A stretch of DNA of 64,000 nt from the NCBI GenBank assembly GCA_033064195.1, contig JARBJD010000243.1, positions 51,433-115,432 of the forward strand, read 5' to 3'. Source of the stretch: Blattamonas nauphoetae (Eukaryota; Preaxostyla; Oxymonadida). The notes under the pieces are model-generated. The model searched no databases. It was not told the DNA's origin and saw nothing but the letters and a program-made list of their open reading frames with translations. The position numbers and the translations under genes are program-made. Shown one piece after another: positions 1 through 63,277 of the stretch; the first letter of the stretch is position 1; every line of letters begins with the position of its first letter.

Positions 1-1868
1 GACTGGTTGCGGAGATGGTTCTCACGAAGCGACTGCTTGAAGAGATGGTTCTCACGAAGCGACTGCTTGAGGAGATGGTTCTCACGACGCGACTGGTTGC
101 GGAGATGGTTCTCACGAAGCGACTGCTTGAAGAGATGGTTCTCACGAAGCGACTGGTTGCGGAGATGGTTCTCACGACGCGACTGGTTGCGGAGATGGTT
201 CTCACGACGCGACTGGTTGCGGAGATGGTTCTCACGAAGCGACTGCTTGAAGAGATGGTTCTCACGAAGCGACTGGTTGCGGAGATGGTTCTCACGAAGC
301 GACTGGTTGCGGAGATGGTTCTCACGAAGCGACTGGTTGCGGAGATGGTTCTCACGAAGCGACTGGTTGCGGAGATGGTTCTCACGACGCGACTGGTTGC
401 GGAGATGGTTCTCACGAAGCGACTGCTTGAAGAGATGGTTCTCACGAAGCGACTGCTTGAGAAGATGGTTCTCACGAAGCGACTGGTTGCGGAGATGGTT
501 CTCACGAAGCGACTGCTTGAAGAGATGGTTCTCACGAAGCGACTGGTTGCGGAGATGGTTCTCACGAAGCGACTGGTTGCGGAGATGGTTCTCACGAAGC
601 GACTGCTTGAAGAGATGGTTCTCACGAAGCGACTGCTTGTGGAGATGGTTCTCACGAAGCGACTGGTTGCGGAGATGGTTCTCACGACGCGACTGCTTGA
701 GGAGATGGTTCTCACGAAGCGACTGCTTGAAGAGATGGTTCTCACGAAGCGACTGGTTGCGGAGATGGTTCTCACGAAGCGACTGGTTGCGGAGATGGTT
801 CTCACGAAGCGACTGCTTGAGGAGATGGTTCTCACGAAGCGACTGGTTGCGGAGATGGTTCTCACGAAGCGACTGCTTGAAGAGATGGTTCTCACGAAGC
901 GACTGGTTGCGGAGATGGTTCTCACGAAGCGACTGGTTGCGGAGATGGTTCTCACGACGCGACTGGTTGCGGAGATGGTTCTCACGAAGCGACTGCTTGA
1001 AGAGATGGTTCTCACGAAGCGACTGGTTGCGGAGATGGTTCTCACGAAGCGACTGGTTGCGGAGATGGTTCTCACGAAGCGACTGCTTGAAGAGATGGTT
1101 CTCACGAAGCGACTGCTTGAGGAGATGGTTCTCACGAAGCGACTGGTTGCGGAGATGGTTCTCACGACGCGACTGGTTGCGGAGATGGTTCTCACGATGC
1201 GACTGCTTGAAGAGATGGTTCTCACGAAGCGACTGGTTGCGGAGATGGTTCTCACGAAGCGACTGGTTGCGGAGATGGTTCTCACGAAGCGACTGCTTGA
1301 GGAGATGGTTCTCACGAAGCGACTGGTTGCGGAGATGGTTCTCACGAAGCGACTGCTTGAAGAGATGGTTCTCACGAAGCGACTGGTTGCGGAGATGGTT
1401 CTCACGAAGCGACTGGTTGCGGAGATGGTTCTCACGAAGCGACTGGTTGCGGAGATGGTTCTCACGAAGCGACTGGTTGCGGAGATGGTTCTCACGAAGC
1501 GACTGCTTGAAGAGATGGTTCTCACGAAGCGACTGGTTGCGGAGATGGTTCTCACGAAGCGACTGGTTGCGGAGATGGTTCTCACGAAGCGACTGCTTGA
1601 AGAGATGGTTCTCACGAAGCGACTGCTTGAGGAGATGGTTCTCACGAAGCGACTGGTTGCGGAGATGGTTCTCACGACGCGACTGGTTGCGGAGATGGTT
1701 CTCACGATGCGACTGCTTGAAGAGATGGTTCTCACGAAGCGACTGGTTGCGGAGATGGTTCTCACGAAGCGACTGGTTGCGGAGATGGTTCTCACGAAGC
1801 GACTGCTTGAAGAGATGGTTCTCACGAAGCGACTGGTTGCGGAGATGGTTCTCACGAAGCGACTGCTG
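1..1868 (+). repeat. 30-bp minisatellite, left inverted arm of the MULE
   Basis: About 62 head-to-tail copies of a 30-bp unit, typified by GACTGGTTGCGGAGATGGTT followed by CTCACGAAGC. Two main variants (GGTTGC or GCTTGA in the first half) and rarer CACGACGC or CACGATGC endings alternate. Because 30 is a multiple of 3 and the unit lacks stops in two plus-strand frames, the array reads as more than 600 codons of a ten-residue repeat (MVLTKRLVAE-like); this openness is not by itself evidence of a protein. The array breaks at 1866-1880 into unique DNA. The rare CACGATGC unit occurs at 1193-1200 and 1703-1710, 510 bp (17 units) apart within matching context, so blocks of units have been duplicated. 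Confidence 0.95.
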
Positions 1869-2664
1869 ACGAGGAGGGTATTGATGGTTGAGAGATTCCG
1901 CGATGATGGGATTGAATTCGTCCGGGATGCAATTCTGGTCCCTCATCGAAGGATGCTGCCAATAGTGCAAGTGGCGTGGTCGAGGACTCCCAGACATTCC
2001 CATTTGTGTTGAGGGTGTCTTTTCAGTGTCATCATCTGGTTGTTGGGGAAGACGGTGTCGATGCTGTTGGGATGACGTTCTTGATGCGTATGGGGATTGA
2101 GAATCGCCCCCCTCGACACCATCCGAAATGTCGTCATGGTGAAGTGATTTAAATAGAGTTCAAAGTTTTTCGGCTTGACAGGGACATAGATGAATCCATT
2201 TCGTTCCATCGGAAGAGGAGAGTTGTGATAGATAAGGTAGTCTTTTGAGATATTTGAGGTGGTGATGGAGAAGAGGTGATACTTGGGAAATTAGAGATCG
2301 ACGATCTTAAATACTGATTGAGATGTGGAGTTTCAATTTGGTACCCATTCTTTGAAAAAGCGTTCCCAACTTTTTCAATCAGATGCAGATAACCTAATTA
2401 TTGCATCTCGTTGTTAATACTCTTCACTTGGACTCGCTGTCGAAATTTGGAGGGTCTATAAATTGTTTAAAAGCTTCTCAATGAAAGAATCTAAACTGTT
2501 GAGAATCATCTCGCATCTGATGGGATGATTCAGGGACATTTTTTACTTATGTTCGGTTTCTTTCTTCTGTTGCTCATTCAGTATCGCTCTTTTTCAGCTT
2601 TTTCTGTTGAGCGAGTCGAATGACTCTGATATCCGCTGGTTCCCGAGCTTTGTTGCTCCTCCTT
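1869..2664. other. MULE interior between left arm and transposase; no assured gene
   Basis: AT-rich sequence. One minus-strand frame of 88 codons (1943-2209, starting MERNGFIYVPVKPKNF) is open and lies downstream of the transposase on the same strand. It could be the tail of a second element protein or chance. I recognise no domain. The rest shows nothing I can name. Confidence 0.3.
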
Positions 2665-4365
2665 TCAATTTGTTTTCCCTTGTGACTTGCGCACGGCTCT
2701 TCGGCTCCAATAGTTGTTGTGGAGTGGATAATGAGGTTTGGTCTGGGTGAGGCGTGTCAGGTGCCAACCACCAACATTTGCCAATTTCAGATGGTTGGAT
2801 GGATATTCCTCGCTGAATTTTGTTCCGTATGTTGCACAGGCAAGGGACGCGATGGGTTCTTTGGATGAGGCAGTCACATCTTTTGTGGGATGGTTCCTTC
2901 CATCTACTGCGATATCACTGATTGCCTTCAGACAATCAACGGACACGACGCTAATAACAGAATGGAGGAGATGTTGGTCTCGGAGATATGCTGGTTGCAT
3001 AATTTTTCGCTCCAAATTTCTTTGTAAAACTGCGAGTTGGGCCGTTGTATATGAAGCGATTCTGTCAACAGTCGTAAAAGGTGTTGGGAAGGAGTAACGA
3101 TATAGTCCTTAAGGACTCGATGGAGACCTTCTAGAGGAGATGTGGTGAGTTCTCCAAGATGGGGATGGCGGTCAATTGAGTATGAACAGAACTTGTCTGC
3201 AAATGGCAGCCAAGTATTCGAAAGGTATGACATTCCCTTTGGGATTTTTGAGTATTTTTGTTTTAGGGACTCAAAGGCAAGGATGAAATTTGATTTCGTG
3301 CTTTCTGAGATCATTGATTGGAAATCTCCCATAAAATCCTCAAGCAATTTGTTGTCAGGCAGCTTTGTTTTCGGATTGATGAGGAGAGGAAGAAAGTATG
3401 CTTTGACAGCTGTGAGAATGTGGAAACGGCAGAGAATGACTGGAACGGCAGGCAGAGTACTATGTAGAGCATTCAACTGGGCGAGTGATCTATCGGAAAG
3501 TATGACTTCAACATTTTGAATCCTACTAGATCGTTAAAGGTGTGCAGTATTTCGGAGATATCATTTTCTGCTTCTCCCTCATCAATCCAAAACCGATAGA
3601 AAAGTGTCGCCGCAGGATGTGCGCCCTGCAAAATGGAGGAGGGGCATTCCGTACCTGTTCGTTTTATAAGTTGAATCCAGGTAGACAACAGATGGAAACA
3701 AGCGAAACATCTGAACAGACCTGGGGTCTGCAAAGAACAAAGCTCGAAGGTGTCCTTCTTGATCTTGCATTTTCTAAAAATCCACTTTTCTTCACTTAGC
3801 TCAGCTTCAAGCATCTCCATCGCGGTCCTGCCTTGCATGGCCTTCTTTGCTCTTCTCTCAGAAGGTTTGTAAGATCTTTGCCAATCACTGGCACTTCTCT
3901 TGTAGAATTGATGCCAACGAGGATGTTCTTCCGTCTTGTTCCCGCCGCAAACTGTGCTATTGCTGATTTCCGTTCCTCATCCGTGAGACCCCGAGCCTCA
4001 TGGTAAACGCCCATCTGTTCTACGTGCTTGTGGTCGTGTTCGCGATGGTTCCAGGTTCGCCTCCATTCTTTGTCACCTATCTTCCGAATGTAGACACCGA
4101 ATGGACACGAACCAGCGATTGAGAATCGCTTCCTCTTCTGTATGGAATCTGTGCCATCGGTACTATGGTATGACTTACTGTGTTTACATTTCAGAATTGC
4201 CTTTGAATCCACTTTTCCTCCAGCTATCGACAGGATGTAGCCATTTCGAAGAGCGAAGGCTTTGGTGTCTTCGATTGCACTGGCACGACTGGCAAAAGTT
4301 TCATCAGGAGGAGGAACGAAATCACTGTCTTCATCGTCTGAGAGACTATCTTCAATGAATGACAT
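2665..4365 (-). pseudogene. MULE transposase, frameshifted
   Basis: Read on the minus strand, fragments in different frames align end to end as a Mutator-family transposase. The N-terminal part (4365-3796) carries a FAR1/zinc-finger-like DNA-binding region with cysteine and histidine pairs (LKCKHSKSYHST, WNHREHDHKH). The core has the first catalytic aspartate in YLDSTYKTNRYG (about 3690), the second in ILSDRSLAQLNAL (about 3500), the MULE CxxH box as CRFHILTAV (about 3430) and the glutamate in SPLEGLHRVLK (about 3130). At least four frame changes are needed (near 3835, 3760, 3600 and 3500), so this copy cannot make a full enzyme unless the breaks are sequencing errors or unrecognised introns. 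The arm-derived reading frame on the same strand ends at 4422, just upstream. Confidence 0.85.
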
Positions 4366-4439
4366 CGAGACAGTTGCAACAGCTCACCAATAATAATTTT
4401 ACATTTGGAGTGAAGTGTGACTCAGATTCCACTCCGGAT

Positions 4440-6378
4440 ATTCATGTGACACATCGACATCGTCTCCTCAACCAGCCGACTCGCGACAACCATCTCCTCA
4501 ATCATCCGACTCGCCACAACCATCTTATCAACCATTCGATTTGTTGACATCGTCTCCGCAACCAGTCGCTTCGTGAGAACCATCTCCGCAACCAGTCGCG
4601 TCGTGAGAACCATCTCCGCAACCAGTCGCTTCGTGAGAACCATCTCCGCAACCAGTCGCTTCGTGAGAACCATCTCCGCAACCAGTCGCTTCGTGAGAAC
4701 CATCTCCGCAACCAGTCGCTTCGTGAGAACCATCTCCTCAAGCAGTCGCTTCGTGAGAACCATCTCTTCAAGCAGTCGCTTCGTGAGAACCATCTCCGCA
4801 ACCAGTCGCTTCGTGAGAACCATCTCCGCAACCAGTCGCTTCGTGAGAACCATCTCCGCAACCAGTCGCTTCGTGAGAACCATCTCCGCAACCAGTCGCG
4901 TCGTGAGAACCATCTCCGCAACCAGTCGCTTCGTGAGAACCATCTCCGCAACCAGTCGCTTCGTGAGAACCATCTCTTCAAGCAGTCGCTTCGTGAGAAC
5001 CATCTCTTCAAGCAGTCGCTTCGTGAGAACCATCTCCGCAACCAGTCGCTTCGTGAGAACCATCTCCTCAAGCAGTCGCTTCGTGAGAACCATCTCTTCA
5101 AGCAGTCGCTTCGTGAGAACCATCTCCGCAACCAGTCGCGTCGTGAGAACCATCTCCGCAACCAGTCGCTTCGTGAGAACCATCTCCGCAACCAGTCGCT
5201 TCGTGAGAACCATCTCCGCAACCAGTCGCTTCGTGAGAACCATCTCCGCAACCAGTCGCTTCGTGAGAACCATCTCCGCAACCAGTCGCTTCGTGAGAAC
5301 CATCTCCGCAACCAGTCGCTTCGTGAGAACCATCTCCTCAAGCAGTCGCTTCGTGAGAACCATCTCTTCAAGCAGTCGCTTCGTGAGAACCATCTCCTCA
5401 AGCAGTCGCTTCGTGAGAACCATCTCCGCAACCAGTCGCTTCGTGAGAACCATCTCCGCAACCAGTCGCTTCGTGAGAACCATCTCCGCAACCAGTCGCT
5501 TCGTGAGAACCATCTCCGCAACCAGTCGCTTCGGGAGAACCATCTCCGCAACCAGTCGCTTCGTGAGAACCATCTCCTCAAGCAGTCGCTTCGTGAGAAC
5601 CATCTCTTCAAGCAGTCGCTTCGTGAGAACCATCTCCTCAAGCAGTCGCTTCGTGAGAACCATCTCCTCAAGCAGTCGCTTCGTGAGAACCATCTCCTCA
5701 AGCAGTCGCTTCGTGAGAACCATCTCCTCAAGCAGTCGCTTCGTGAGAACCATCTCCGCAACCATCCGACTCGTTGGCATCGTCTCCGCAACCATCCGAC
5801 TGGTTGGCATCGTCTCCGCAGCCATCCGACTCGTTGGCATCGTCTCCGCAACCAGTCGCTTCGTGAGAACCATCTCCGCAACCAGTCGCTTCGGGAGAAC
5901 CATCTCCGCAACCAGTCGCTTCGTGAGAACCATCTCCTCAAGCAGTCGCTTCGTGAGAACCATCTCTTCAAGCAGTCGCTTCGTGAGAACCATCTCCTCA
6001 AGCAGTCGCTTCGTGAGAACCATCTCCTCAAGCAGTCGCTTCGTGAGAACCATCTCCGCAACCAGTCGCTTCGTGAGAACCATCTCCGCAACCAGTCGCT
6101 TCGTGAGAACCATCTCCGCAACCAGTCGCTTCGTGAGAACCATCTCCTCAAGCAGTCGCTTCGTGAGAACCATCTCCGCAACCAGTCGCTTCGTGAGAAC
6201 CATCTCCGCAACCAGTCGCTTCGTGAGAACCATCTCCGCAACCAGTCGCTTCGTGAGAACCATCTCCGCAACCATCCGACTCGTTGGCATCGTCTCCGCA
6301 ACCATCCGACTGGTTGGCATCGTCTCCGCAGCCATCCGACTCGTTGGCATCGTCTCCGCAACCAGTCGCTTCGTGACA
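4440..6378 (-). repeat. 30-bp minisatellite, right inverted arm of the MULE
   Basis: About 60 copies of the left-arm unit in reverse orientation, with a degenerate inner edge (4440-4558). A block of three divergent units (ACCATCCGAC with TTGGCATCGTC) occurs at 5761-5850 and again at 6271-6360, exactly 510 bp (17 units) apart, the same spacing as the duplication in the left arm. A single variant, CGGGAGAAC, recurs at 5532 and 5892 (360 bp, 12 units). The order of variants differs from the left arm, so the arms are not perfect palindromes and have evolved separately. The array is open on the minus strand from 6416 to 4422 and in one plus frame; I do not call these proteins. Confidence 0.95.
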
Positions 6379-6600
6379 ACCCCCTCCTCCTCAACCTTCC
6401 GAATCGTTGACTTCATCTAAACCAAGTCTCTCTCTTTTCTCACTTCGACATCCCACTTTGTGAACGAAGTTAGTTCGCGACCCTTTACCTTAATCTATCA
6501 TTTTCAATCTTTGAAATTGCTCGATTCTCCTTTTCTCTCTATTCCACGTCTCTGTCATTCATTAAAGACACATTATAAACCAAAATAGAGACAATAATAA
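6379..6600. other. unique sequence between right arm and element tip
   Basis: AT-rich, no gene seen. It links the minisatellite arm to the terminal block and is inferred to be part of the transposon. Confidence 0.4.
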
Positions 6601-6689
6601 CAGATCTGCGTGTAGACTTTCAGATCTGCGTCTAGACCGATCTGCAGATCTGCGTCTAGACTTTTTCGGATCTGAGCCTAGACTTACCC
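6601..6689 (+). repeat. MULE right terminal block with four subterminal 17-bp motifs
   Basis: Four tandem-like copies of a 17-bp motif, CAGATCTGCGTCTAGAC and variants, separated by 2-7 bp, end in GACTTACCC. The same arrangement, inverted, starts the element at 6845 and, in this orientation, ends it at 8958. Repeated subterminal motifs are commonly transposase-binding sites; that function is inferred here. Confidence 0.7.
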
Positions 6690-6844
6690 CTCAATCGTGA
6701 CCACACCCTGCTTCTCGTTGGCCGCGACTGGGTTTGATTTTCAGGATGGAAAGTGGGATTTGAAGGGGACATTGATGAGAGATGGATGTGCATGATTGTG
6801 TGGTGATTGTTGGGCAAAATGGAGCTCTCTTGATGACGGATTGG

Positions 6845-7082
6845 GGGTAAGTCTAGGCTCAGATCTAGAAAAGTCTAGGCGCAGATCTGCAGATCGGTCT
6901 AGGCGCAGATCTGAAAGTCTACACGCAGATCCGTCATTCTTCGCCTTGCTTTTGCTTCCATATCACATTTTCGACATCCGACATCTAAATTTCGATATCA
7001 TTTCTTCTTTTTCGTTCACTTCTCACCTTATCCCGTTTTTTAGACTGTTCTCACAATGTTCAAACACTCCTTGGGTTGATCA
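6845..7082 (+). repeat. left terminal inverted repeat of the element at 6845-8958
   Basis: Matches the reverse complement of about 8722-8958 with scattered differences. Contains the four 17-bp tip motifs and then an AT-rich stretch. Confidence 0.8.
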
Positions 7083-8721
7083 AGTCTTCTCACCGACTCA
7101 ACGAAGAATAACGCCTGGATGATGGTTCACTAGCAAATGTATGTCATCTAAATCCTATTTCATTCTCATTTTCTGCCTTATCGATCCCACAGCTCTATGA
7201 TACGTTTGACGTTCCGCACACCGTCTACGAAGACATGTGCGTTGATACACATTTTCTCCCATATCAACTGATTGCAAGAACTAATGGGTTTGCTTTTTCG
7301 TCTTTTCTTCCCTTTTGTTGGTTCTTCATCGATATCAGCTCAAACTCTTTTCACAAAGTGCCAACCCTTCATCCTCGTTCTTCTCGCCCTTCACGAATCT
7401 TCAATTTTGTATTCGTTCCCTTCTGGACATTATCAGGGGACGAAAGTGTGTGAAAATTACCTATAGTTTTCAGGAGATCACTTCCGTCTCGATCTCGATT
7501 CATTCTCCTCGCTGTATGACTTCCCTCTGTTCATCTCCTCTCTGTTCTGTTGTCTTCATAGATCAGGAAACTTCAGATCCATTGTTGGTTCATTGGAGCC
7601 TTCGATGATCACGAAACACCGTTGTTCACCTCGCTCCGTATTAAGTGGGGATCCTCACTCGAATTCGCATCTACATCTCCCACACGATTCATCTCCCCGT
7701 TCTGACGGCCGACGAACCAAATCCTTCCTGAATTTGTCCATTTCACATCACTCAACATTGTGATCCCATTACAACGTCTAACATCACGTTCACAATTGTA
7801 ACACCATGCGCAACGAATTTGTCCAACTTATCAATTAAAAGAACCACAAGACGAGTCAATTACTTCGGAATTGTCTTCAGATTTGCCGTTCGATCTCGAC
7901 ATTGGACTACAACCATCATCACCATCAAGATCACAGTTCCTCTCCAATCAGAACGATCCCCGAATGGTCTCAGAGGGAAAAACGGAGCAGGACATGTTGA
8001 ACAATCATTATTATTTGCAGAAATTCGACTAACATCGCCACTGTTGAGACGGAGGAATGGAATAGCAGATACGAAGATAAGAGGTGAATTTCCATGTATG
8101 CACTTAGAATCGTCAACAAAGACCACTTTTCATTTTTTGTGCTTTTTGTTATCTTCTTCAAGTTCTTACAGCCTTTGATCTTTCTTTTTCTCAGTTTCGC
8201 CCAATTCCGTTGATGTACCAAATTATTGTTATTCGGATCATCCGCACAGTAACGTGGAGTCTGCAAACACTACTCAAACCGCTAGTAGATGCCATTCTGA
8301 TTCAGAAGAAGTCAGGACAAAGCATGGAAGAAAAATTGAAAGACAAGAAGAGAGAAGAAGAAACAAGTAAGAAAGGGAACAGAAAATGAGTGCGTCGCTC
8401 GATTCTGGCTGACTATGACCAACCGATTGACGAGTATGACAGCTTCCACAACAATCTTCAATTCTCCCTTCATCAGTATTCTCCTCGTCTCTCCTCCCTC
8501 CCAGTAGCATTAAATTCCTTCTCACCACCTCCTCCTCCCATCATCTCGCTCAATTTTCCCACTATGCCTTCTCCCTCCTCTCAATCACCTCTCTCCGCAT
8601 CCTCTGCTCATATGGATGAGACCAGACACCTCTAAGTTGTTCGTTCATTTCCAGCCTTCTTACACGTCACGACAAACCAACGTGATTGATCAAATTGCTT
8701 CAAATGACCACTTCCTCCTTG

Positions 8722-8958
8722 ATCAACCCAGGACATGTTTGAACATTGGGAAAACAGATGGAAGAATGTCAAAAAGTGAGAAATGAGCAAAAAAAGTGGA
8801 AATGATGTCGAAATTTAGATGTAGGATGTCGAAAATGTGATATGGAAGCAAAAGCAAGGCGAAGAATGACGGATCTGCGTGTAGACTTTCAGATCTGCGC
8901 CTAGACCGATCTGCAGATCTGCGCCTAGACTTTTCTAGATCTGAGCCTAGACCTACCC
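8722..8958 (-). repeat. right terminal inverted repeat of the element at 6845-8958
   Basis: Inverse partner of 6845-7082. Its last 90 bp closely match the MULE tip at 6601-6689, tying the two elements into one family. Confidence 0.8.
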
Positions 8959-13990: not shown

Positions 13991-14186
13991 GTGAAGGAAG
14001 AAGTGTTTGGGAGTCAATGATGGTTTGATCGAATCGAACATAACACCAAGACAATATTTTCGACTGTATTGATGCAGATGAACCACAGACATGACGACAT
14101 TGGCACAGTCAGCCCAATTTGTCAATCGATTGGAACTTGGATTGAAGCTAGTTTCAAAAATTACGTTATGGGTCTCATTCTTTCTC

Positions 14187-15299
14187 ATGTCAAGACAACA
14201 ATCTACTCCCCAAACTATAACTGTCACTGCCCTCGGACCGGCTCTCCATGGAAAATCTCAATTCCTCTCGATGCTTTTCGGGCAGGAGGTGTTCACAGTT
14301 GGGCACACAGGTTTTCCGCACTCACAGCAGTCACACGCTCTTGAACGCCAGATCAACTGGCATCGTTTTCGTCTAGTTGATCAGTCAGGCTTTTCTGAGC
14401 GTGGTCAAGATGAACAAAGGCACTTAGACACCATTTGTCAATCTCTTCGGAATGAGAGATCGATGAATGTCATCTGTTTGTGCGTTCGGATCGATGGTGT
14501 CCGAGTTGGGGAAAACATCCATGCTGCCCTTCGTCATATCCGCAATATGTTCGCCACACCTGATATTTACCCACACATGTGTCTGGTCCTCACTTTCACA
14601 CAAACACCACAGATGAAGTCAAGATTTCTGAACAAAATACTCCCAACTGTCAACAAACATATCGAAGAGCTGTTCGACGATCAAAGAAAAGTTCATGGCG
14701 ATCTCCCAATCTTCTTCGTGGATTCAGCGATCAACCTAGACAGAAGGACTCTGAAGGAAAAGGAACGATTTCTGGCTCATGTATCGAAGTTGAGCGCATT
14801 TCCCACATCGAACATCAACCGTTTGGATGGAAGATTAAAACTGGTGACAGAAGAGATCGTCACCGAAACAACTCCTGGCCGGCCTCGACCCTTCATGGTC
14901 ACAGTCATTCGCGATGGCATCCAAATGGATCCAGAATGCGGAGAACTGATGCCAACGACCATCCATCAGAATGTTCGGCGATTAAGGCTGGAATTGTGGC
15001 ATCCCGACGAATATGGCCGTACCACTTCATTTCGGACGATAGGACCAGTTGGCGAACCTTGGGAGACGGTCGACGACAGCTGCATTCGAGTCTTCAAGAA
15101 AGAAGTCACAACGAGAAGAACGATCACAGGTGCAACTCAACTAAGACAACGAAATTTCGACAGGAATGGGAAATGCATCGAAGCATCCCCATGGATACAG
15201 ATCAAAGAAAACACAGAAAATGATGGAGACACTGTCGGAGCGGGGGTCGCTGGATTGTTTTTTGCGCTTGGTGCATTCGTTCTCTCTATTATTTTGTAA
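14187..15299 (+). CDS. AIG1/GIMAP-like GTPase, tail-anchored (array member 1)
   Basis: Single-exon gene of 370 residues from the ATG of MSRQQSTPQ. All four array members align from an MS-R start here, so the longer upstream frame (from 14091) is not used. P-loop GPALHGKS at residues 17-24; the G3 box is VDQSGF; the region NVICLCVRIDGVRVG matches the AIG1-type hydrophobic box; the G4 position reads TFTQTP, lacking the aspartate seen in members 2-4, so guanine specificity may be weakened. A C-terminal half conserved among the paralogues (VTEEIV, GPVGEPWE, RVFKKE) has no name I know. The last 20 residues form a membrane helix (GVAGLFFALGAFVLSIIL), so it should be tail-anchored with the GTPase in the cytosol, as in GIMAPs. 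Confidence 0.8.
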   Translation: MSRQQSTPQTITVTALGPALHGKSQFLSMLFGQEVFTVGHTGFPHSQQSHALERQINWHRFRLVDQSGFSERGQDEQRHLDTICQSLRNERSMNVICLCVRIDGVRVGENIHAALRHIRNMFATPDIYPHMCLVLTFTQTPQMKSRFLNKILPTVNKHIEELFDDQRKVHGDLPIFFVDSAINLDRRTLKEKERFLAHVSKLSAFPTSNINRLDGRLKLVTEEIVTETTPGRPRPFMVTVIRDGIQMDPECGELMPTTIHQNVRRLRLELWHPDEYGRTTSFRTIGPVGEPWETVDDSCIRVFKKEVTTRRTITGATQLRQRNFDRNGKCIEASPWIQIKENTENDGDTVGAGVAGLFFALGAFVLSIIL

Positions 15300-15700
15300 C
15301 AAACTCGCTTTTGAATTAGATTCATTCACCTTCACACACATTTGATCGTCTACAATTCCGTTTTACACACTTTTCCCAAATGAAAGTTGTGCAGTGGATG
15401 CGCAACTCAGAAGAGAGAAAGGTCGTCCGCGAGAATGACGGCGAGGATGAAGCGGGAAGGATATGTAGGGAGTTCGAGAGGGCTGAAAGGGGAGAATAGC
15501 ATCGGTCAATGAACGAGGGCTTTGGAGTTCATGATGGTTTGATCAAGACGAATCCGACACAAATGAAGGACTGTCAATCATCTCGAGATATTTGGAGCAC
15601 CTTCATGATCACATTGGGATTGGCACCCAAATTTATCCTTTGATTGGACGATGGATGGAACTTAGTCTTCAAATACTTGTTATGGGTCGCATCAATTCTC

Positions 15701-16816
15701 ATGTCCGAACGACTCTCTAGTTCACAAACCTGCAAAGTGGCTATCGTCGGACCGGGTGGTGATGGAAAATCCCAGTTCGTTTCGATGGTTTGTGGCCACT
15801 CAATCTTCACCGTTGATCAATCTGGATTCTCGTGCACTGAAGACACACATAGTGTCGATTGCACAATCAAGGGCCAAAATTTTCGATTTATCGATCATCC
15901 TAGCTTTTGTGTTCTCGAAGAAGATGAACAAAGACACCTTGACACAATATTCCATTCTCTGAAAGAAGAGCAAAGCATCAACGCGATCTGTTTGGTCTTT
16001 CGGGTCACCCGAAACCGAGTTGACCTCGCCATTGAGAAAACTCTTCGATATGTCCGTAATCTGTTTACTACGCCTGACGTTTATAAACATTTGTGCCTTG
16101 TCATCACTTTCACTGACTCCATCAAGGCAAAAAAAGAATTTGAGAAGACGATGCTCCCAGCCATCAACAAACAGATCGACAAACTGTTCGACGGTCAAAG
16201 AAACGATCTTGGCGATCTCCCAATTTACTTTGTGGATTCAGCGATCATTCCAAACGATATGACACGAGCGGAAAAGGATCGATTTCTGGCCAATGTTGCG
16301 ATGATGAGTGAGATTCACACAACAAGCATCAATCGTTTAGATCCCAGATACGAATTGGTAACCGAAGAGATCACCGCTGAGAAAATAGCAGACAAGCTTA
16401 AACCCTTCATGGTCACAGTCATTCGGAATGGCGTCCAACAGAAGTCTGAAGAAGGGGAGATGATGCCAGTGACTACATATCAGAAAGTGAGGCGACTGAT
16501 CTTTGAATCTCTCACCCCTGACGAAAATGGCAACACCACTTCGTGTCGAACTTTAGGGCCAGTTGGCGAACCTTGGGATACTGAAGACGACAGCCATGTT
16601 CGAGTCTTCAAGAAAGAATACAAAACTAGAACGACCATACTCGGTGGAATTGAAGAAAGGTATAAAATTTACGACAGGAATGGCAAATGCATAGAAACTT
16701 CTCCATGGATTCAGATTGCCAAAACAAACCCTAAATGGCCTAACATTGTCATTGGGATGGGTTTTGGTGGATGTTTTCTCCAAATTCTACTCTTAGTTGT
16801 TGTTATTATTTTGTGA
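15701..16816 (+). CDS. AIG1/GIMAP-like GTPase, tail-anchored (array member 2)
   Basis: 371 residues, single exon, start MSERLSSS. P-loop GPGGDGKS, G3 box IDHPSF (glycine replaced by serine), AIG1-type box NAICLVFRVTRNRVD, G4 TFTDSI with the expected aspartate. Ends in a strongly hydrophobic helix (GGCFLQILLLVVVIIL). Its middle (about 15970-16070) and the segment encoding RLIFESLTPDENGNTTS are close to member 4, while the remainder is not, pointing to gene conversion within the array. Same strand as its neighbours, spaced about 400-670 bp apart by duplicated sequence, so the genes arose by tandem duplication and are not an operon. Confidence 0.8.
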   Translation: MSERLSSSQTCKVAIVGPGGDGKSQFVSMVCGHSIFTVDQSGFSCTEDTHSVDCTIKGQNFRFIDHPSFCVLEEDEQRHLDTIFHSLKEEQSINAICLVFRVTRNRVDLAIEKTLRYVRNLFTTPDVYKHLCLVITFTDSIKAKKEFEKTMLPAINKQIDKLFDGQRNDLGDLPIYFVDSAIIPNDMTRAEKDRFLANVAMMSEIHTTSINRLDPRYELVTEEITAEKIADKLKPFMVTVIRNGVQQKSEEGEMMPVTTYQKVRRLIFESLTPDENGNTTSCRTLGPVGEPWDTEDDSHVRVFKKEYKTRTTILGGIEERYKIYDRNGKCIETSPWIQIAKTNPKWPNIVIGMGFGGCFLQILLLVVVIIL

Positions 16817-17482
16817 CAAGCTCGCTTTCCATTTCAATTCATTCACCTTTAATTGAATTCGACTGTTTGCACTTCTGTTTCACACTCTTTTTCGAATGGA
16901 AACTGTGCAGTGGACGATCAAGTCCAGAACAAAGAATGTTCGATGAACCAAGAATCGAGAGCGTTGGGCGGTCAGATAATCCAGTCGACCAACTCGAAAT
17001 ATGTTTTCTTTCCATCGAACGGCATCGATGACAAGCGAGGTCTGGTTCGAACCATTCAAGCAAAAATCCAACAATGAAGACTCCAAATTCGGTCAGCTCA
17101 ATTCGGGCTGACACAACTGAATGATATTCGCAGATTCATCAGAATCACCCTTCCCAACCAGAGACTCGAGATTGTCGGCGAGGATGAAGCGGGAAGGGGA
17201 TGGCGGAATGAATGAAATGGTGATGGGAATGGAAAGGGAAGGATATGTAGGGAGTTCGAGATGGCTGAAAGGGGAGAATAGCATCGGTCAATGAACGAGG
17301 GCTTTGGAGTTCATGATGGTTTGATCAAGATGAATCCGACTCTAGTGAATGACTGCCAATCATCTCGATATTATTGGAGCACCATCGTGATGATATTGGG
17401 ATTGGCGCCCAAATTGATCCTTTGATTGGAAATTGGATGGAACTTAGTCTTCAAATACTTGTTATGGGTCTCATTGATCCTC
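16817..17482 (+). repeat. duplicated spacer between GTPase genes, copy 1
   Basis: About 650 bp that recurs with few changes at 18587-19252. A version with about 270 bp deleted lies at 15300-15700. It contains conserved non-coding or 3'/5' flanking sequence, including GGGAAGGGGATGGCGGAATG, and the run-in to each gene start. Unit of duplication is therefore gene plus spacer, about 1.77 kb. Confidence 0.85.
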
Positions 17483-18586
17483 ATGTCCGAACGACCTTCT
17501 CCCCGACGACCTGTCAAAGTTACGCTTCTCGGACCGTCTGGTGATGGACGATCTCAGTTCGCTACGATGCTTCTTGGTAAGTTGGTCTTCGTAGTGAGTG
17601 ACGGTCCTAATTCACAAACCGAAATCTCTGATGGTCTAGATTTCAAAGTGGGCAATATACCGATTCGTGTGATTGATCAGCCGGGGTTTGGCTCCCTCAG
17701 TCAGGATATACAAAAATATCTAAACACCATCACTTCTTCTCTTCAGCAAGAGCAATACCTCAATGCGATCTGTTTGTGTATTTCGGCCAACAGAAACAAA
17801 GTTGGAGACGACATTCAGACGACCCTTCGGAATGTCCACAATATGTGGGCCACACCAGACATATACAAACATTTGTGCCTCGTCATCACCCACACAGACA
17901 CACCACAAAAGAAAACAACATTCTTGAACAACATGCTCCCAGCCATCAACGTCGAGATCGACAAACTGTTCGGTAACTCAGAAAAAACAATTCCCAAACT
18001 TCCGATCTTTTTCGTGGATTCCGCGATCAACCCAGACAGCAGGACTCTGGCGGAGAAGAATCGTTTTCTTGCTCATGTCATGACACTGAGTGCAATTTCA
18101 ACATCGAACATCAACCGTTTGGATGCGAACTACAAACTGGTGACAGAAGAGATCGTCGATGAACCAAGTCCTGGCCAGCCTCAACCCTTCATGGTCACAA
18201 TCATTCGCAATGGCCTCCAAATGGATCCAGAATGCGGAGAACCGATGACAGTGACCATCCATCAGAATGTGAAACGACTGAGACTGGAATTGTCGCGCCC
18301 CGACAGATTTGGCGGTTTGATTTCATATCGAACGTTAGGGCCAGTTGGCGAACCCTGGCCGACCGTCGATGACAGCAAAGTTCGTGTCTTCAAGAAGGTT
18401 TTCACGACGAGAAGAACCATACTCGGTGCAACTGAACAGATGCAAGAAAACTTCGACAGAAATGGGACATGCATTGAGATTTCCCCATGGAAACAGATCA
18501 AAGATCCGAGTGCATCCTTGACTTTTGCAGTCATCCTTGCACTTGGTATCATTCTCATTCTCATCATAACCGTCGTACGTCGATAG
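17483..18586 (+). CDS. AIG1/GIMAP-like GTPase, tail-anchored (array member 3)
   Basis: 367 residues, start MSERPSPRRPVKV. P-loop GPSGDGRS has arginine for the invariant lysine, which in most P-loop GTPases cripples phosphate binding; G3 IDQPGF and G4 THTDTP are the best preserved of the four. C-terminal anchor ILALGIILILIITVVRR. About 165 nt encoding the block from HLCLVITHTD to FVDSAIN are nearly identical to member 4. The K-to-R change suggests a binding-only or regulatory partner; that is inference. Confidence 0.8.
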   Translation: MSERPSPRRPVKVTLLGPSGDGRSQFATMLLGKLVFVVSDGPNSQTEISDGLDFKVGNIPIRVIDQPGFGSLSQDIQKYLNTITSSLQQEQYLNAICLCISANRNKVGDDIQTTLRNVHNMWATPDIYKHLCLVITHTDTPQKKTTFLNNMLPAINVEIDKLFGNSEKTIPKLPIFFVDSAINPDSRTLAEKNRFLAHVMTLSAISTSNINRLDANYKLVTEEIVDEPSPGQPQPFMVTIIRNGLQMDPECGEPMTVTIHQNVKRLRLELSRPDRFGGLISYRTLGPVGEPWPTVDDSKVRVFKKVFTTRRTILGATEQMQENFDRNGTCIEISPWKQIKDPSASLTFAVILALGIILILIITVVRR

Positions 18587-19252
18587 TAAGCTCGCTTTCC
18601 ATTTCAATTCATTCACATTCACTTGCTTTCGACTGTTTTCACTTCTGTTTCACACTCTTTTTCGAATGGAAACTGAGCAGTGGACGGTCAAGTCCAGAAC
18701 AAAGAATGTTCGATCAGGAAAGAACAGAGAGCGTTGGGCGGTCAGATAATCCAGTCGACCAACTCGACATATGTTTTCTTTCCAACGAACGGCATCGATG
18801 ACAAGTGAGGTCTGGTTCGAACCATTCAAGCAAAAATCCAACAATGAAGACTCCAAATTCGGTCAGCTCAATTCGGGCTGACACAACTGAATGATATTCG
18901 CAGATTCATCAGAATCACCCTTCCCAACCAGAGACTCGAGATTGTCGGCGAGGATGAAGCGGGAAGGGGATGGCGGAATGAATGAAATGGTGATGGGAAT
19001 GGAAAGGGAAGGATATGTAGGGAGTTCGAGATGGCTGAAAGGGGAGAATAGCATCGGTCAATGAACGAGGGCTTTGGAGTTCATGATGGTTTGATCAAGA
19101 TGAATCCGACTCTAGTGAATGACTGCCAATCATCTCGATATTATTGGAGCACCATCGTGATGATATTGGGATTGGTACCCTAGTTCATGCATCGATTGGA
19201 CGTTGGATTGGACTAAGTCTTCAAATACTTGTTATGGGTCTCATTGATTCCC
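18587..19252 (+). repeat. duplicated spacer between GTPase genes, copy 2
   Basis: Partner of 16817-17482. The near identity over non-coding sequence means the duplication or conversion is recent compared with the divergence of the coding parts. Confidence 0.85.
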
Positions 19253-20284
19253 ATGTCCGAACGACCTTCTCCCCGACGACCTGTCAAGGTTACGGTTCTC
19301 GGACCGTCTGGTGATGGAAAATCCCAATTTCTTTCTATGCTTTTTGGCAGTTTAATCTTTTCTGTTGAGAAGTCTGGTTTCTCGTGCACCCAGCTCTCAG
19401 CCGGAGTCCCTCTCACTTACAACAAACGATCAATGAGATTGATTGACCAGCCAAGCTTTTATGTTCTCGAAGAAGATGAACAGGGGCACCTGGATTCCAT
19501 CTGTTATTCGCTGAAACAAGAACAATACATCAATGCGATCTGTTTGGTCTTTCGGGTCACCCGAGACCGAGTTGACCTCGCCATTCAGAAAACATTTCGG
19601 AATGTCCGTAATCTGTTTGCCACACCAGACATATACAAACATTTGTGCCTCGTCATCACCCACACAGACACACCACAAAAGAAAACAACATTCTTGAACA
19701 ACATGCTCCCAGCCATCAACGTCGAGATCGACGAACTGTTCGGTAACTCAGAAAAAACAATTCCCAAACTTCCAATCTTCTTCGTGGATTCCGCAATCAA
19801 CCCAAATCCCACCACTCTGAAGGAAAAGGAACGATTTCTAGCCCATGTATCGAAATTAGGGGCAATTCCCACAACGAGCATCAATCCTCTGGACGCCAGA
19901 TACAATCTGGTGACAGAAGAGATCGTCGAAGACACCAGACCTGGCACACCTCGTCCACACATGATCACAATTGTTCGGAACGGTATCCAAGAGAAACCGG
20001 AATGCGGAGAATCGATGCCAGTGACCATCCATCAGAATGTGAGACGATTGAGATTTGAATCACTCACCCCCGACGAAAATGGCAACACCACTTCCTATCG
20101 AATCTTGGGACCAGTTGGCGAACCTTGGCCGACCGAAGACGACAGTCATGTTCGAGTCTTCAAGAAGCAATTCTTCACAAAAACCACCGTCTTCGGTGCG
20201 AAGAAATACATGCAGAAGAATTTCAACAAGAAGGGCAAGTGCATTGAGAAGACTCCCTGGCTGGATGTCAAAGATGCCGCATAA
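19253..20284 (+). CDS. AIG1/GIMAP-like GTPase without membrane anchor (array member 4)
   Basis: 343 residues, start MSERPSPRRPVKV, nearly identical to member 3 for the first 25 codons. P-loop GPSGDGKS is canonical, G3 IDQPSF, G4 THTDTP. It ends WLDVKDAA followed by TAA, about 25 residues short of the others and lacking the hydrophobic tail, so it should be soluble. It is a mosaic: the start and the THTD-to-SAIN block follow member 3, while the CLVFRVTR region and the LTPDENGNTTS region follow member 2. The segment after the P-loop (SGFSCTQLSAGV) matches the relic at 13800. Probably formed by recombination between array members. Confidence 0.8.
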   Translation: MSERPSPRRPVKVTVLGPSGDGKSQFLSMLFGSLIFSVEKSGFSCTQLSAGVPLTYNKRSMRLIDQPSFYVLEEDEQGHLDSICYSLKQEQYINAICLVFRVTRDRVDLAIQKTFRNVRNLFATPDIYKHLCLVITHTDTPQKKTTFLNNMLPAINVEIDELFGNSEKTIPKLPIFFVDSAINPNPTTLKEKERFLAHVSKLGAIPTTSINPLDARYNLVTEEIVEDTRPGTPRPHMITIVRNGIQEKPECGESMPVTIHQNVRRLRFESLTPDENGNTTSYRILGPVGEPWPTEDDSHVRVFKKQFFTKTTVFGAKKYMQKNFNKKGKCIEKTPWLDVKDAA

Positions 20285-46661: not shown

Positions 46662-48023
46662 TTATAGCGTCAATGGATCTTGCGTTGTTAGATCTGTGAT
46701 CATGTGTGGTTTATCCTGATCGTTGTCTGGCTCAGCGATAATTTGCTGCGGCTGAGTCTCAGAAATAAGATCGAGTTGCTGATCAGTTAGCGCTGATTCG
46801 TCCAGATCGTCGTTCTTGTCCAGTTCCTGGCTCATTTCTTTGTACGACGAGAGGCGTTCCTTCTTTTGATGGGCCCGCACATAACAGACGATCAGTACGG
46901 CCACAGCCGCCGCCACACACGCGACACAGACCACCACAACGATGATGATCCAGAATGGGAAGCCCCCGCTCGGAGGGGCTAGTCTGAATGAGGTTGATGT
47001 TCGTTGTTCTTGACCGTACACGAGGCGGCAGTGGAGATCGGCAGATGCGTCAAGAACTTCTGACAGTGTCGATTGGAGGATTGGGATGACGATGGATGTT
47101 TCTGTGAGGATCACTCCATTCTCTGCGGAGAGAGCTACTCTGTGGCGTTTCCCTTCAGTTCCATCCTTTTTCTGTTCGAACACTTCGAGTGACAAACCAC
47201 ATGGAATGAGCATGGTCCCAACAATCGAGATTCTGTGGGTTTTAGAGTCAGAGATCCATTCACTCGTTGATTCCTCCGACAGCGTGGGAACGAAATGAGT
47301 GTGATTCTCAGGAACGACCTCGCTTGTGAGAGTACAATCGTCGAAGTTCATCCAGAAGTGAGGGCGTTTTTCAGACGATCCATCACCACAGCTCAGACTT
47401 TTGATTGTGACGTTTGCCTCGTCTGTGCAGAAGAGGTTTCGGCGAGCTGATGGGTATGAATCAATGTTGAGAGGGGCGTTGTCGTCAAATTCCGACGATT
47501 CGATGTGGAGAGACCCGTTCTGAACGAAGATCGCTCCTTGCGAGAGTTGTTTCATGACGACACCATGCATCGTTGTATCCGCTTCAATAAGCTGGAAGAT
47601 ACCCGAAGTCCATTGACAAAGTGACTCAATTCGGCTTTCTTCATTGTTGGATGCTGATTGTCCTGAGACAACGCAGGAGGAAAGTGTCACATGGGCGTGA
47701 GAGGCGTGAATGAAGACAAACGATGACGATGAGGGATCGAGTTGGATTTGCAGCGACTTCATGGTAAGTGACCCACTCACATCAACTGCACCCTTCTTCT
47801 CCCCCATTTCTGTGTCTTCTGGGATGTGTAGGGTTGGTGTGGAGGACGTTGCACTGGAGAATGTTACATCCATCCCGTCTGTAACGGTGATCGCTGGTCA
47901 GAAGTTGACAGTGTCACTGAGACCGATTTCAGCTTGAGTGAACTGCAATGTCTCAACGATATTCCACACATCTTCAAGCGAACCACATGGTGAAGAGTCC
48001 GAACCGCATGTGGTCGAGTTATA

Positions 48024-54061: not shown

Positions 54062-55001
54062 GAAACCTTGAATGAAGGCAATTGAATCAGCTGCTTGAAA
54101 TGTCCGAGTTCGCGAGGTTCCATACGGTGATGTGAATTCGGAGTTCGAAATATCTGTGCTCACAGAATGATAAGTGATGATCTGGAGTTCGCTATCGGGA
54201 AGAGCGGTAGTGAGTGTATTGGTCGTCATAGGTGTATGCCTCAGTCGAGTTTTCCAGGCTGGGTGAGTCGGTGATGTTTTGATGGTCGGATCATTCGAGT
54301 TTCGCACACTGAATTCTGTCGACAATGAGATCCCTGTACTCACCGTTCAATAAAGCCCGTTCTCAACGTCATGCAGTTTAGTTCCCATCAAAATTTGGCT
54401 CAGACGATGGCGAGGCTGGTCCAAGGCTGGCTGTCTACACGACGACACGTTCACAAACGAACACAATGCAATAGATGTGGAAAGAGAAGAGAGTGGAGAC
54501 GGGGTGGATGTTTTCGGTGCAATGCCAGTTTTGGAGAGGACTGCAGTGGACGTGAACGAGCACGACGAGATTGTCATAAGGACGCGGCTTGACGGCGACG
54601 CTCCCTTCCGATCCAGTATTTTTAGCAAATGCAGGAATCACATCCGAAGACGAACACATTTCATATCGAACGAATGTCACCGATGTCTCCCCCGCGACGT
54701 TGCATGTGTGGTGGACCACAATCGGCGATGCCAGCTGGCCCAGTCGGAGAACAGAGTCCGAAAATGACACACAGGATGGCTCCACAATCGCACATCGCGA
54801 CGGCGAGGACAGTGTCAGAGAGACTGGATGGCCAGGTTTTGCGTTCGTGCAACCAAGTGACTCCACGTCGAAAATCAGAGCGTCAACGAAAGCGTTCAGT
54901 TCGTGATTGATGTGCTTGTTCTCGAGTCTGATGATTGGTGGCGAATCATATCCGTGTCTCGGCCTTCTTGATTCCTGCAAGAACCCGATGAGAAAGATCA
55001 T
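54062..55001 (-). pseudogene. Ig/TIG-like surface-protein fragment, several frames
   Basis: Minus frames 55001-54435, 54628-54347 and 54343-53948 follow one another with frame changes. Segments such as HPVSLTLSSPSRCAIVEPSC, SPIVVHHTCNVAGETSVTFV and SEFTSPYGTSRTRTFQAADS look like extracellular beta-sandwich repeats with paired cysteines. Related in style to the gene at 46662-52552; possibly its detached upstream part. Confidence 0.45.
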
Positions 55002-57141
55002 GACGGATGGCAGGGGAGGAAATGAACTGCCGAAGGTGTTGTGTGCGGATGGGATGCGGCGAAATGCCCTTCTTCTGATAATCTGCCCTCACAAAAGGGG
55101 CAATTGTTTCGATGTCCTTCCTCCCTTCCCATCGACACTCTTCGCAACGAACGAGTCCTGCTCGTCCACAGACTCGCTGCGGGGAGTGCGGCGAAGGAAT
55201 CTGGTCAGCCCGATCGCGATCGTCTAAAGCTTGTCTTCGTCTTGCTTGGCAGCCATCGGGGTGTGTGTCGACTGTTTCCAGTTTTTGACGAGTTCTTCGG
55301 TGTTGACCAGAATCAGCTCTGGTTCAGATAAGACAGCGACCGCAGCGACGAGAGCGATAGCGCGTTCTTCAGGGGGGACAACAAAGAGCGACGAAGAGAT
55401 CGAGTTTTTGAGGAGGTCCGTATGGTTCGGAAAGAAGAGGGGATGTCTCGACTGCGTGTGTGGATGAACAGATACTGGAGTGGGGAGAGACTCTGTCGTC
55501 GAGAGAGACGTTTTGTTGGGAGAATCGTGAGAAATGATGGAGACAGTCATCGACGTGCTTTGTTCCTTATTGTTGGGAGATTCGTGATAGCCATTCGGTT
55601 TTTCTTGTTTTTATTGTATTTCGGGTGATGCTGACCTGAATTCCAGTAATTGACGTGCTCGTCCGTGAGTCACCGCGCGATGGAAATGATGCAACAAGTC
55701 TTCCAAACTACAGTTGAACCAACCGATATATCCTTAATAATGGCCGTCCAAACGAAGAGCCAGGTCCCACAAACTTGTAATAAACACATTTTTCAACATC
55801 CGAAAATATCGGACGAGATCCTCCCGAATCTAAATCGAGTGGCAAACTGGCGGCAGCCCTGTCTGCTTCGTCGAGTATCTTCTGATCATGCGACTGGCAA
55901 TGTAGGTGTACGCGTTCAAAGTGAAGAGCTTGATTGGTAGAATCGGTGGGCGGAGAGACAGGGCCCGAGTCTTTGTGAATAAGAATCTAGCCTTCGCAAA
56001 TTTATCCATCTCTGCGCGGAAACTTTGTCCTCAGAAGTGTGATTCCGTGGAAGAGAGGTCAGGATAAACTCAAGAAGGGAAGAGTTCAGAGCGTTGTCTG
56101 ACACATGGTGGTTCAGAAAAGTGGTGAAGACGAGGAAGAATGGATTTGTTGTGGTGAATGAGGAATCGTCAAGGAGAGCATGCTGGAGGAACAACGAAAG
56201 GTAGCATTGGTCTTGCAAAGAAAGAGGTGGATGAGAGTCCAATCCCGAAATGGACGGAAGTGTCATGTTTGGCGTATTTTTTAAGGAAAGAAGAATGTCA
56301 AGCATGTGCTGGACGAATGGAGTGTCGTCCGAAGGAAGTAGAGGGCGGGTAAACCCGAGTTGGAGAAGAAAGAGAAAACTTGCTGACAACTTTTGACGAC
56401 CAAATGGTACGCTGTTCACGGAGTTGCTGGAGGGGGACAGACAAAAGTGAGAGTGTTGGCACCAATTCCTTTTCCATCTCCATATCACTTGCTCGGTGTT
56501 TCAACGAGTTTAGACAATGGTGGCAGTTGTTGCTTGGAAGCAGGGGGATCAGATCAAGCGAGAAAACTTCGTTGGAAGAAGAGGGAAGACCGGTGAGTGA
56601 GAGTGCCAGGGCTTCTTGGATGGTATGCTCATCGGAAGAAGGGACACGAGTGAGTTGGCTTGGATTGAATTCACCGATGGGGTACCTGATCGAAATTGAT
56701 ATAGGCTTTCAGGCTGGCTTGTTGATGGGGAGGATTACTCACGAAACAATTCGGCGACGAACCAGTGTCTGGGATCTATCGTGAAGGAGAACAACCAAAA
56801 CAGAAAAGTCCAATTCTTGATATGAAAGAACACATTCAGCCAGCGATGATGGAAGACGATCAAACTTCGAGATGGTAATGGAAAATGCAAGTGATATCGT
56901 GAAAAGTCGTGTTGTTATTTGAGAGAAAGATCTCAGGGGGCAGATCCATCCACCATGGCTCCCACGCAAACATTCGCTTCTCCGACGTGCTCAGTTGGAA
57001 TAAGAGAGTGTGTTTATTGTGATTGAGTTTAGCGACTGGGGGGATGCGAGCCAGCTGATTAGGAAGCACCGGAAAGAGAACTGCATCCTCGTTGAATCGG
57101 TATGTCTCTGATATCGTCACTCTCTTCAGCGAATTTTGGAT
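55002..57141. other. gene debris, mostly minus-strand
   Basis: Minus 55550-55224 (PPEERAIALVAAVAVLSEPE, LILVNTEELVKNWK) and 56488-55916 (TPFVQHMLDILLSLKNTPNM, LSLFLQHALLDDSSFTTTNP) are Leu-rich helical and could be HEAT-like remnants; minus 57153-56860 (NEDAVLFPVLPNQLARIPPV) is unassigned. None has a convincing start, and frames change repeatedly. Confidence 0.35.
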
Positions 57142-57455
57142 ATCATCACACACATTTCTTTAACATTGCGAGAACTGCACAAGCAGATAAGTGTTCATCG
57201 CGACATCAAATCGGAAATCGTGGATTTAACGAGCCCTGGAGTGGCGAAACTTGGTATGGAAGGTTCTTTCTTTCAATATGGGGTGTGTGTCTAGGTGACT
57301 GGTGAGTCGCAGAATCTACGGCATTCGTTCGAAATGGCAAGCTCGAAAAGCGACATCTGGTCGTTGGGAGTTCTGTGGCGAAACCGCAGTGCTTCTTCCC
57401 TAACACAGAAACTGACAAATACCCAACATTGTTCTGTATCGCCTTCTCCACCTTA
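57142..57455 (+). pseudogene. protein kinase fragment
   Basis: Plus strand: LRELHKQISVHRDIKSEIVD is the kinase catalytic loop (VHRDIKSEN with N changed to I), followed by GVAKLGMEG at the DFG position and, after a frame change, SSKSDIWSLGVLW (subdomain IX). The N-lobe and the rest of the C-lobe are missing, and both the Asn and the DFG motif are lost, so it is dead. Confidence 0.7.
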
Positions 57456-57589
57456 GCGGCGCTGCCGGTTCTGCTCAAGTCGTCACCGGACCTCATTTCG
57501 TATGATCAGTTCGCACACATCTTAAACGCGATTCTTGTTCTCTGCCTTGCCCTCTGCTCCTGACGACATATCAAGCAGAAGCTCTTCTT

Positions 57590-57871
57590 GTGATTATGTG
57601 CATCCAGGAACTTACGTGGCGAAGGACAAAAGTGGTGGGAAGACAAATTCGGAAACAGTTGTACGTTGAGTTCGAATACGCGAAGGCAATTGAGAAGATT
57701 GCAGAATTCGTCACACTCAATCGTTCACAGCTGCTGAACGAGCATTCATCGCTGGCTTTAGTGATGATCTCGAAGGACAAGCCGCCAGGTGTGTCACTTG
57801 TCTCATTTGAGCGTGTTTTAGGTGAAATGCAGATGTCCAGCGAACCTGAGCCGATATTGGACACGTATTAA
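57590..57871 (+). pseudogene. unassigned coding fragment
   Basis: 93-codon plus frame with coherent helical text (YAKAIEKIAEFVTLNRSQLL, SSLALVMISKDKPPGVSLVS). I recognise no family. It follows the kinase remnant and may come from the same HEAT/kinase gene family. Confidence 0.3.
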
Positions 57872-59121: not shown

Positions 59122-59880
59122 TCAATTAGAACGAGTTGGATGACGATGAATGAGGATGCAGAAGCATCCCAAATTTGGTGAATAGAAATTAAAAATTGAC
59201 AAAACCCCGATGTCACAGCGAGAGTGAATTCCGTTGAGAGTGAGACTGTCTGAATCCTTGTCAGACTCGACAAATTGTCGCTCGCCAACGAAGCAGTGTG
59301 CACGGGTCTTCCCAGTGATCACAAGTTTCTTCAGCTCGTAATTTGCAAAGTCGCATTCGCTAAAACTCCCCATGTCGTTTTCGAAACCCATTTCAGACTT
59401 CGTGACTTCCGCTCCGTGGGTGGGGAGGAGAAAGGAGACGATTCCAAAGGTGGAAAGAATGAAGAGACTATGGAAGCGGTGTTATCGACAACAAGACATT
59501 TGGAGTTCATATCAATTCGCTGGAATGATGATGAGGGAAAGAATCTGGAGTTCTGGACACTGACGTCTTCCCTGCTTCTGAAGAGAGTTTGGCAAGACAA
59601 ACATGTCCATGTGTCGATGTTATCCACAAAACAGCTGCACTTGCGGATAAGATTAAATTGCTGCTGGCTGGATTTGAGGCTGTTGGTTGTTTCGTTCTTT
59701 GATCCTCCAACAGCACGACACCAAACGAGTTCATCGCCTTGACAGGTTGAAAAAGGAATCTTTGCATCCACGCCAGCGAATTCTCCGATTTGTGTCCAGA
59801 TGACGAGATGATGTGTAGAGGAGTGATTAGAAGCGGAGATGGAACTGAATTCAACGCGGATGAGACGAGTTCTTTTTAGG
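59122..59880 (-). pseudogene. surface-protein fragment truncated by a minisatellite
   Basis: Minus strand from about 59880: RVEFSSISASNHSSTHHLVI, CSCFVDNIDTWTCLSCQTLF, VQNSRFFPSSSFQRIDMNSK, then after a frame change near 59340 KKLVITGKTRAHCFVGERQF. The Ser/Cys-rich beta pattern fits the beta-helix surface family. The upstream side runs directly into the 32-bp repeat array, which keeps the frame open but is not part of the protein. Confidence 0.45.
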
Positions 59881-59904
59881 ATGCGAGTTGTGATTCCTTT
59901 CGAT

Positions 59905-63097: not shown

Positions 63098-63277
63098 CAA
63101 ACTCCTCTCCTCATTCTTCTGTTATCCCTTCAACTCCTACTGTTCCTTTCCATTACGATTCTCCTAATTCTCCAATTCTTATTTCTCCTCCAAGCTCTCC
63201 TATTCTTTTCATTCTGATTCATTTTCACCTCACCACTTTCACCATACTAAAATAACTACCACCTCACTCTTTCCATA

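Follow-up and report, generated by a model that had tools for sequence, protein, structure and literature searches.

Positions 1–6689 of a 64,000-nucleotide stretch of the Blattamonas nauphoetae genome (C161:51433-115432, the whole of which is here called the window) hold a gene for a Mutator-type (MULE) transposase between two opposed arrays of a single 30-bp repeat. The locus raises the question of whether these minisatellites are part of the transposon or satellite DNA of the host, and how they reach their present lengths. Searches for further copies of the element and of its separate layers took in the whole assembly, 88.3 Mb in 837 contigs.

Extent and layers of the element

A preliminary description had equated the transposon with positions 1–6689 and had given it arms of 1.9 kb. 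The transposon is real, yet these positions hold only about half of it, since the whole element measures 13,156 bp (C161:44966-58121), with 6,467 bp lying to the left of window base 1. The inverse tip predicted there is present, the left end being GGGTAGGTCTAGACTCAGATCTG at C161:44966, with a tip that reads GGGTAGG and onwards. Each end is layered, running inward from a tip of ~90 bp through an outer repeat of 219 bp to the 30-bp tandem array, and the tip thus stands apart from the array as had been described, the outer repeat lying between them. The length of 1.9 kb holds for the right array, where Tandem Repeats Finder (TRF) reports 4463-6311 and 4553-6381 on the strand opposed to that of the left array. 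The left array occupies tip offsets 442-8327 in the contig, which amounts to ~7.9 kb and ~260 units, and is clipped by the window edge, the part inside the window being reported as 1-1865 (30 bp x 62.2, score 3205). The features are, in window coordinates:

1..1860, plus strand: left arm, inner portion of the tandem array of 30-bp units, whose scored part starts at C161:45407, ~6 kb left of the window
1861..2539, no strand: spacer from the left array to the transposase 3' end, including 2000-2228
2540..4365, minus strand: MULE transposase gene in several broken frames; 3' end approximate, taken from the open frame of other copies
4366..4447, no strand: spacer from the transposase start to the right array
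4448..6381, minus strand: right arm, 30-bp tandem array of 61 scored units plus degenerate outer units
6382..6600, minus strand: outer inverted repeat, 219 bp
6601..6689, minus strand: tip that ends CTTACCC and consists of ~4 diverged 20-24-bp units; its inverse lies at C161:44966
6690..6698, plus strand: right 9-bp target duplication CTCAATCGT (left: CTCGATCGT)

The segment at 2000-2228, inside the element, has at least 28 dispersed matches at 83-89% identity away from the copies, among the best 40 of 108 candidates.

The transposase

The open frame of the window copy has its first ATG at 4365 on the minus strand, between the arrays, and is split into several pieces, four of which were searched against Pfam. 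The first scores above the cut-off for the ZSWIM1-3 RNaseH-like family (35.6 bits) and just under it for MULE (27.5 bits against 27.6), another reaches 23.7 bits for MULE, below the cut-off, and the remaining two give a sub-threshold AFT match alone and no match, respectively. The longest open frame belongs to copy C212b and matches Pfam MULE PF10551 at E=5.4e-19 (68.9 bits against the cut-off of 27.6) and ZSWIM1-3 RNaseH-like at 3.1e-16, which together with the TRF arrays bears out the original account of a MULE transposase between opposed 30-bp arrays. An intact transposase, for which that account had proposed to search further copies, was not found: compared with one another, all six copies in the assembly have at least one frame break, and these breaks may represent decay, consensus error or, in part, introns. 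As candidate catalytic residues we take D231, D293, C314-H317 and E414, placed by motif rather than by alignment to characterised transposases. The genome search with the transposase, in which 89 of 149 candidates were scored, gave at least 91 matches; those beyond the copies are relatives of 22-78% identity, some of them fragments. Transposases of 55-61% identity lie at C830, C48, C822 and C212:247366. A search of solved structures gave nothing relevant, with a best E of 0.16. At E<=1, the Pfam search returned neither a PHD finger, the criterion for Rehavkus, nor the FLYWCH domain carried by Tm1-A (PMC3169594); AFT appeared at 0.061, below its cut-off. Since the Phantom rows in Table 1 of PMC6446971 comprise elements with no extra domain, with FLYWCH or with SWIM, the missing FLYWCH is compatible with membership of Phantom.

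Copies, target duplications and empty sites

Six core-bearing copies at five sites and one arm fragment were found in the genome, and with them the expected variation of arrays behind a common tip, the arms holding 27 to 258 scored units. The 2,501-bp core query is found whole in five places at 99-100% identity, while in the sixth, C212b, it is found as two pieces around an insert. The outer repeat is whole at at least 12 places with ~100% identity, namely eleven arms of the six copies and the fragment on C82, and at least 28 further partial matches show 80-97% identity, both counts being taken among the best 40 of 63 candidates. Copy C170 lacks the left tip, its left array adjoining other sequence; it was omitted from the core comparison, since no right boundary motif could be located in it. 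Substitutions among the five aligned cores amount to 0-0.42%, with 5-11 gap events per pair.

All five two-ended copies have inverted tips and 9-bp target duplications, a length within the ~8-11 bp that characterises MULEs. The window copy has CTCGATCGT before the left tip and CTCAATCGT after the right tip, agreeing at 8/9 positions, and the other four agree at 9/9: GGAGAGAAG in C212a, CTGGCATTC at the one site of C9 and C158, and CCTACAGGG in C212b. The duplication foreseen to the left of base 1 is thus present, if with one mismatch. The five copies represent four independent sites, because C9 and C158 share theirs; agreement at 8 or more of nine positions arose between random local 9-mer pairs in 0.00038 of trials. 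Related sites without the insertion also exist. For C9/C158, C415 (81%) and C89 (80%) match over the whole 171-base joined-flank probe, and for the window site, C130 (90%, probe 54-171) and C3 (89%, 73-171) both span the junction at base 90.

A single insertion is present twice, as C9 and C158, within a common stretch of ~10.3 kb. They differ by no substitution in 1,033+4,006 bp of flank, in 441+441 bp of ends or in 2,657 bp of core, with 7 gap bases in the 4,006-bp flank and 5 gap events in the core. Two haplotypes were considered as an explanation and rejected: the homology ends abruptly on both sides after ~10.3 kb, which makes a recent duplication appear more likely.

Two smaller observations concern individual loci. 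The core of C212b contains a nested 476-base insert with inverted ends (GGGCAAAAATTTGACAAATT...) and a possible 4-bp duplication. The fragment at C82:92300-93700 is a lone arm remnant of ~470 bp, composed of the outer repeat, a few units and a tip without its last bases.

Confinement of the 30-bp unit

A 15-base core of the unit has 1,131 exact matches in the genome and its reversed control none; 1,130 of the matches lie inside the six copies and the last in the C82 fragment. With as many as 3 mismatches allowed, the edge-type unit is matched 59 times (control 0), each time within these same seven loci. The 30-bp repeat therefore belongs to the transposon, and an ordinary dispersed satellite, which would have undone the original proposal, was rejected on the ground of this restriction.

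A broader form of the satellite explanation holds that minisatellites expand throughout this host and that the transposon ends are one case of many. Three other TRF regions with at least 8 units of at least 10 bp (32, 26 and 24 bp) in 147,229 bases outside the six elements fit this proposal, but their units are different ones, and the 30-bp unit is confined to the tip-bounded copies of one family and one arm fragment. Host-wide expansion would moreover explain growth but not the opposed pairing of the arrays, and we consider it unlikely.

Tips and array-less relatives

The tip has a wider distribution than the array. A 23-base pattern from it has 108 exact matches in the genome (control 0), and of the first 30 tip loci only two have a 30-bp array within 1.5 kb, both being ends of the C9 copy. 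Reading these 30 loci gave eight facing tip pairs, six of which have matching 9-bp flanks, one of the six being the C9 copy; five of the seven array-less pairs thus carry perfect 9-bp duplications, and the flanks disagree in the remaining two, which are the longest (9.6 and 16 kb). C161 carries a further two tip-bounded elements that lack the 30-bp array, each with a 9/9 duplication. Since the tip recurs in array-less elements flanked by 9-bp duplications of their own, the end used in transposition is probably the tip rather than the array; we infer that the transposase recognises the tip and does not need the array, though the array-less relatives may use another transposase.

These elements bear on the proposal that the arms are functional, each 30-bp unit serving as an extra transposase-binding site and long arms being selected for the transposition they add. 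For Tetris and Galileo, repeats of this sort have been proposed to hold secondary binding sites (PMC4079207 and PMC3573991), and the presence of arrays on both sides of all six copies would suit a function. The perfect duplications around array-less elements with the same tips, in the five of seven pairs and the two on C161, speak against it, as does the dissimilarity, judged by eye, between the 30-bp unit and the tip units; the former objection loses force if another transposase moves the array-less elements. On balance functional arms appear improbable.

Three tip-bounded elements may be described individually. Window 6845-8958, one of the two on C161, ends in tips of this kind, duplicates its 9-bp target ACGGATTGG without mismatch and contains neither array nor MULE match. 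To the left of the window, C161:31499-34830 is bounded by tips with the 9/9 duplication GTCTCCGGG. The element at C90:412679 holds in its inner 1.5 kb a 322-aa frame that resembles, by eye, the host protein at window 46662-47897, a possible gene-fragment capture.

Length and order of the arrays

Scored units per arm (left/right) number 258/61 in C161, 30/71 in C212a, 27/34 in C9, 48/31 in C158, 135/236 in C170 and 227/28 in C212b, and the arms measure 1.2-8.3 kb from the tip to the end of the array; the main caveat to these lengths is that they come from an assembly that elsewhere shows gaps without substitutions. C9 and C158 thus differ in both arrays despite the lack of any substitution between them.

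The caveat can be extended to the proposal that the length differences are assembly errors and that the real arrays are similar among copies. The C9 and C158 cores, with their gap events and no substitutions, look as consensus errors would make them look, and, of the four longest arms, three contain 29-base units (the left arm of C161 and both arms of C170). Against this, the array edges are largely conserved while the inner unit order is specific to each copy, private variants occur, and the differences reach hundreds of units, all of which makes error a decidedly improbable source of the differences.

Within some arms the order of units repeats itself. Repeated unit strings exceed those of all 200 shuffles in the left arms of C161 (14 units) and C212b (28 units, 84 units apart), are reached by 3-7 of 200 shuffles in both arms of C212a, the left arm of C170 and the right arm of C9, and are unremarkable in the other six of the twelve arms, where at least 44 of 200 shuffles reach the observed length. 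Among 25 unit variants private to one element, six occur at least twice, three of them in one arm and three, all in C212a, in both arms. The three C212a variants sit within an exact 295-bp block shared by the two arms, which shows exchange between opposed arms in at least this copy. Copying between arms as a general rule has weak support: arms of the same element resemble each other slightly more than they resemble arms of other elements (a likeness reached in 42 of 720 permutations for 3-unit words, and in 204 and 214 for words of 4 and 5), and the signal is clear in C212a alone. The arrays fit change by local exchange, which upholds that much of the earlier suggestion that arm length changes by unequal exchange; unequal crossing-over, slippage and gap repair are all compatible with the data.

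The array might also be thought to encode a repeat protein with a 10-aa unit, open from an ATG at its outer edge, given that an open frame of 664 aa runs through the right array. Among 28 unit variants representing 1,142 units, the more diverged variants being left out, three frames are stop-free in all variants, whereas one variant, found in 2 units, interrupts the putative coding frame with a stop; since several frames are open, openness is not specific to the putative coding frame. Synonymous differences (5 of 18, with 25 of 90 possible) give no sign of selection, and the 29-base units disrupt the frame in three arms. Neither stop counts nor synonymous differences thus support a coding repeat, which we regard as extremely improbable.

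A probable young family with variable arrays

The ends, target duplications and copies, together with an array confined to them and differing between them in the assembly, all directly observed, are best accounted for by a young MULE family that moves by cut-and-paste and whose inverted ends are composite and of foldback type, with variable arrays riding along, a reading to which we assign a probability of roughly 0.8. Foldback-type here denotes a structural class, not a lineage, the ends being composite, inverted and variable in tandem number. The transposase would act at the tips, and the arrays would be carried along with transposition, growing or shrinking by local recombination or replication slippage far faster than point substitutions accumulate; now and then the two inverted arms would exchange sequence. 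A doubtful variant of this mechanism couples array change to the activity of the element, for instance through repair of the excision gap templated by the other arm or by a sister; if true, each insertion would acquire a new unit order, and the array would be a satellite that generates itself and marks each transposition with a natural barcode.

Relation to known elements

The preliminary description had suggested that the combination of a MULE with tandem-repeat arms might be new, a suggestion that does not survive comparison with published elements. Tm1-A of Meloidogyne, a Phantom-type MULE, has foldback-like ends with 1-9 tandem units, mostly of 14 bp, and 9-bp duplications (PMC3169594). 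Like the present element, it has a MULE transposase between composite inverted ends of variable tandem number, with non-autonomous relatives that share its ends, and its end motif CCTACCC equals the left ends here (read outward) and the right ends of C9 and C158 (PMC3169594). It differs in its few short units, set against 27-258 units of 30 bp, and the ~14-bp motif C of Tm1 ends is absent, the unit here being of other length and, compared by eye, of other sequence (PMC3169594). Muta1 of Aedes, also a MULE with tandem-repeat ends and many non-autonomous relatives sharing them, has a palindromic terminal motif and subterminal tandem repeats, and is classed by its authors as type-2 foldback; 10/12 long-ended Aedes families have subterminal repeats, but the 145-bp end of Muta1 holds 9 copies of a 12-bp repeat, against kilobases here (PMC5225508). 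Rehavkus and an aphid Phantom are Mutator-type elements with a recorded minisatellite, whose position is ahead of the 3' end or behind the transposase gene, in contrast to the opposed arrays of both arms here (PMC6446971).

Tetris of Drosophila virilis, assigned to Mutator by its authors from its duplications, shares the order of flanking domain, variable tandem repeats and inner domain as well as kilobase-long arrays, and has allelic copies of three and four units; its unit is 220 bp long, none of its copies was found to bear a transposase, and its repeats often lie on contigs without other Tetris parts (PMC4079207), in contrast to the transposase-bearing copies and confined unit of the present family. 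Galileo likewise lengthens its inverted ends by tandem repeats, independently at each end, yet belongs to the P superfamily and has its longest ends in copies without transposase (PMC3573991). For MULEs, end lengths of 14-500 bp are given in the text of PMC6446971, and up to 613 for Phantom in its table.

With Tm1, Muta1, Rehavkus, the aphid Phantom, Tetris and Galileo as precedents, the architecture was already known, and the element takes to an extreme a design found in transposons of nematodes and insects. New here are the arm size, the confined unit and an array turnover that outpaces substitution; a transposase-bearing MULE with kilobase minisatellite arms did not turn up in searches of the open-licence PMC literature, which is no proof of absence. 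The case touches on the causes of foldback-arm growth in certain transposons and on a possible origin of satellite DNA in such arms. Because the transposase-bearing copies are almost the same while their arrays of a confined unit differ widely, the growth of the arms can be followed unit by unit, with the signal still unobscured by other mutations, the best case being C9 and C158, with ~8.6 kb free of substitution and different arrays.

Other features of the window

No inverted repeats of at least 25 bp were detected in window 55000-64000, and a 32-bp minisatellite of 32 units occupies 59901-60940. Four tandem frames at 14082-20284 appear related by eye, and the one that was tested has a weak AIG1 match below the cut-off.
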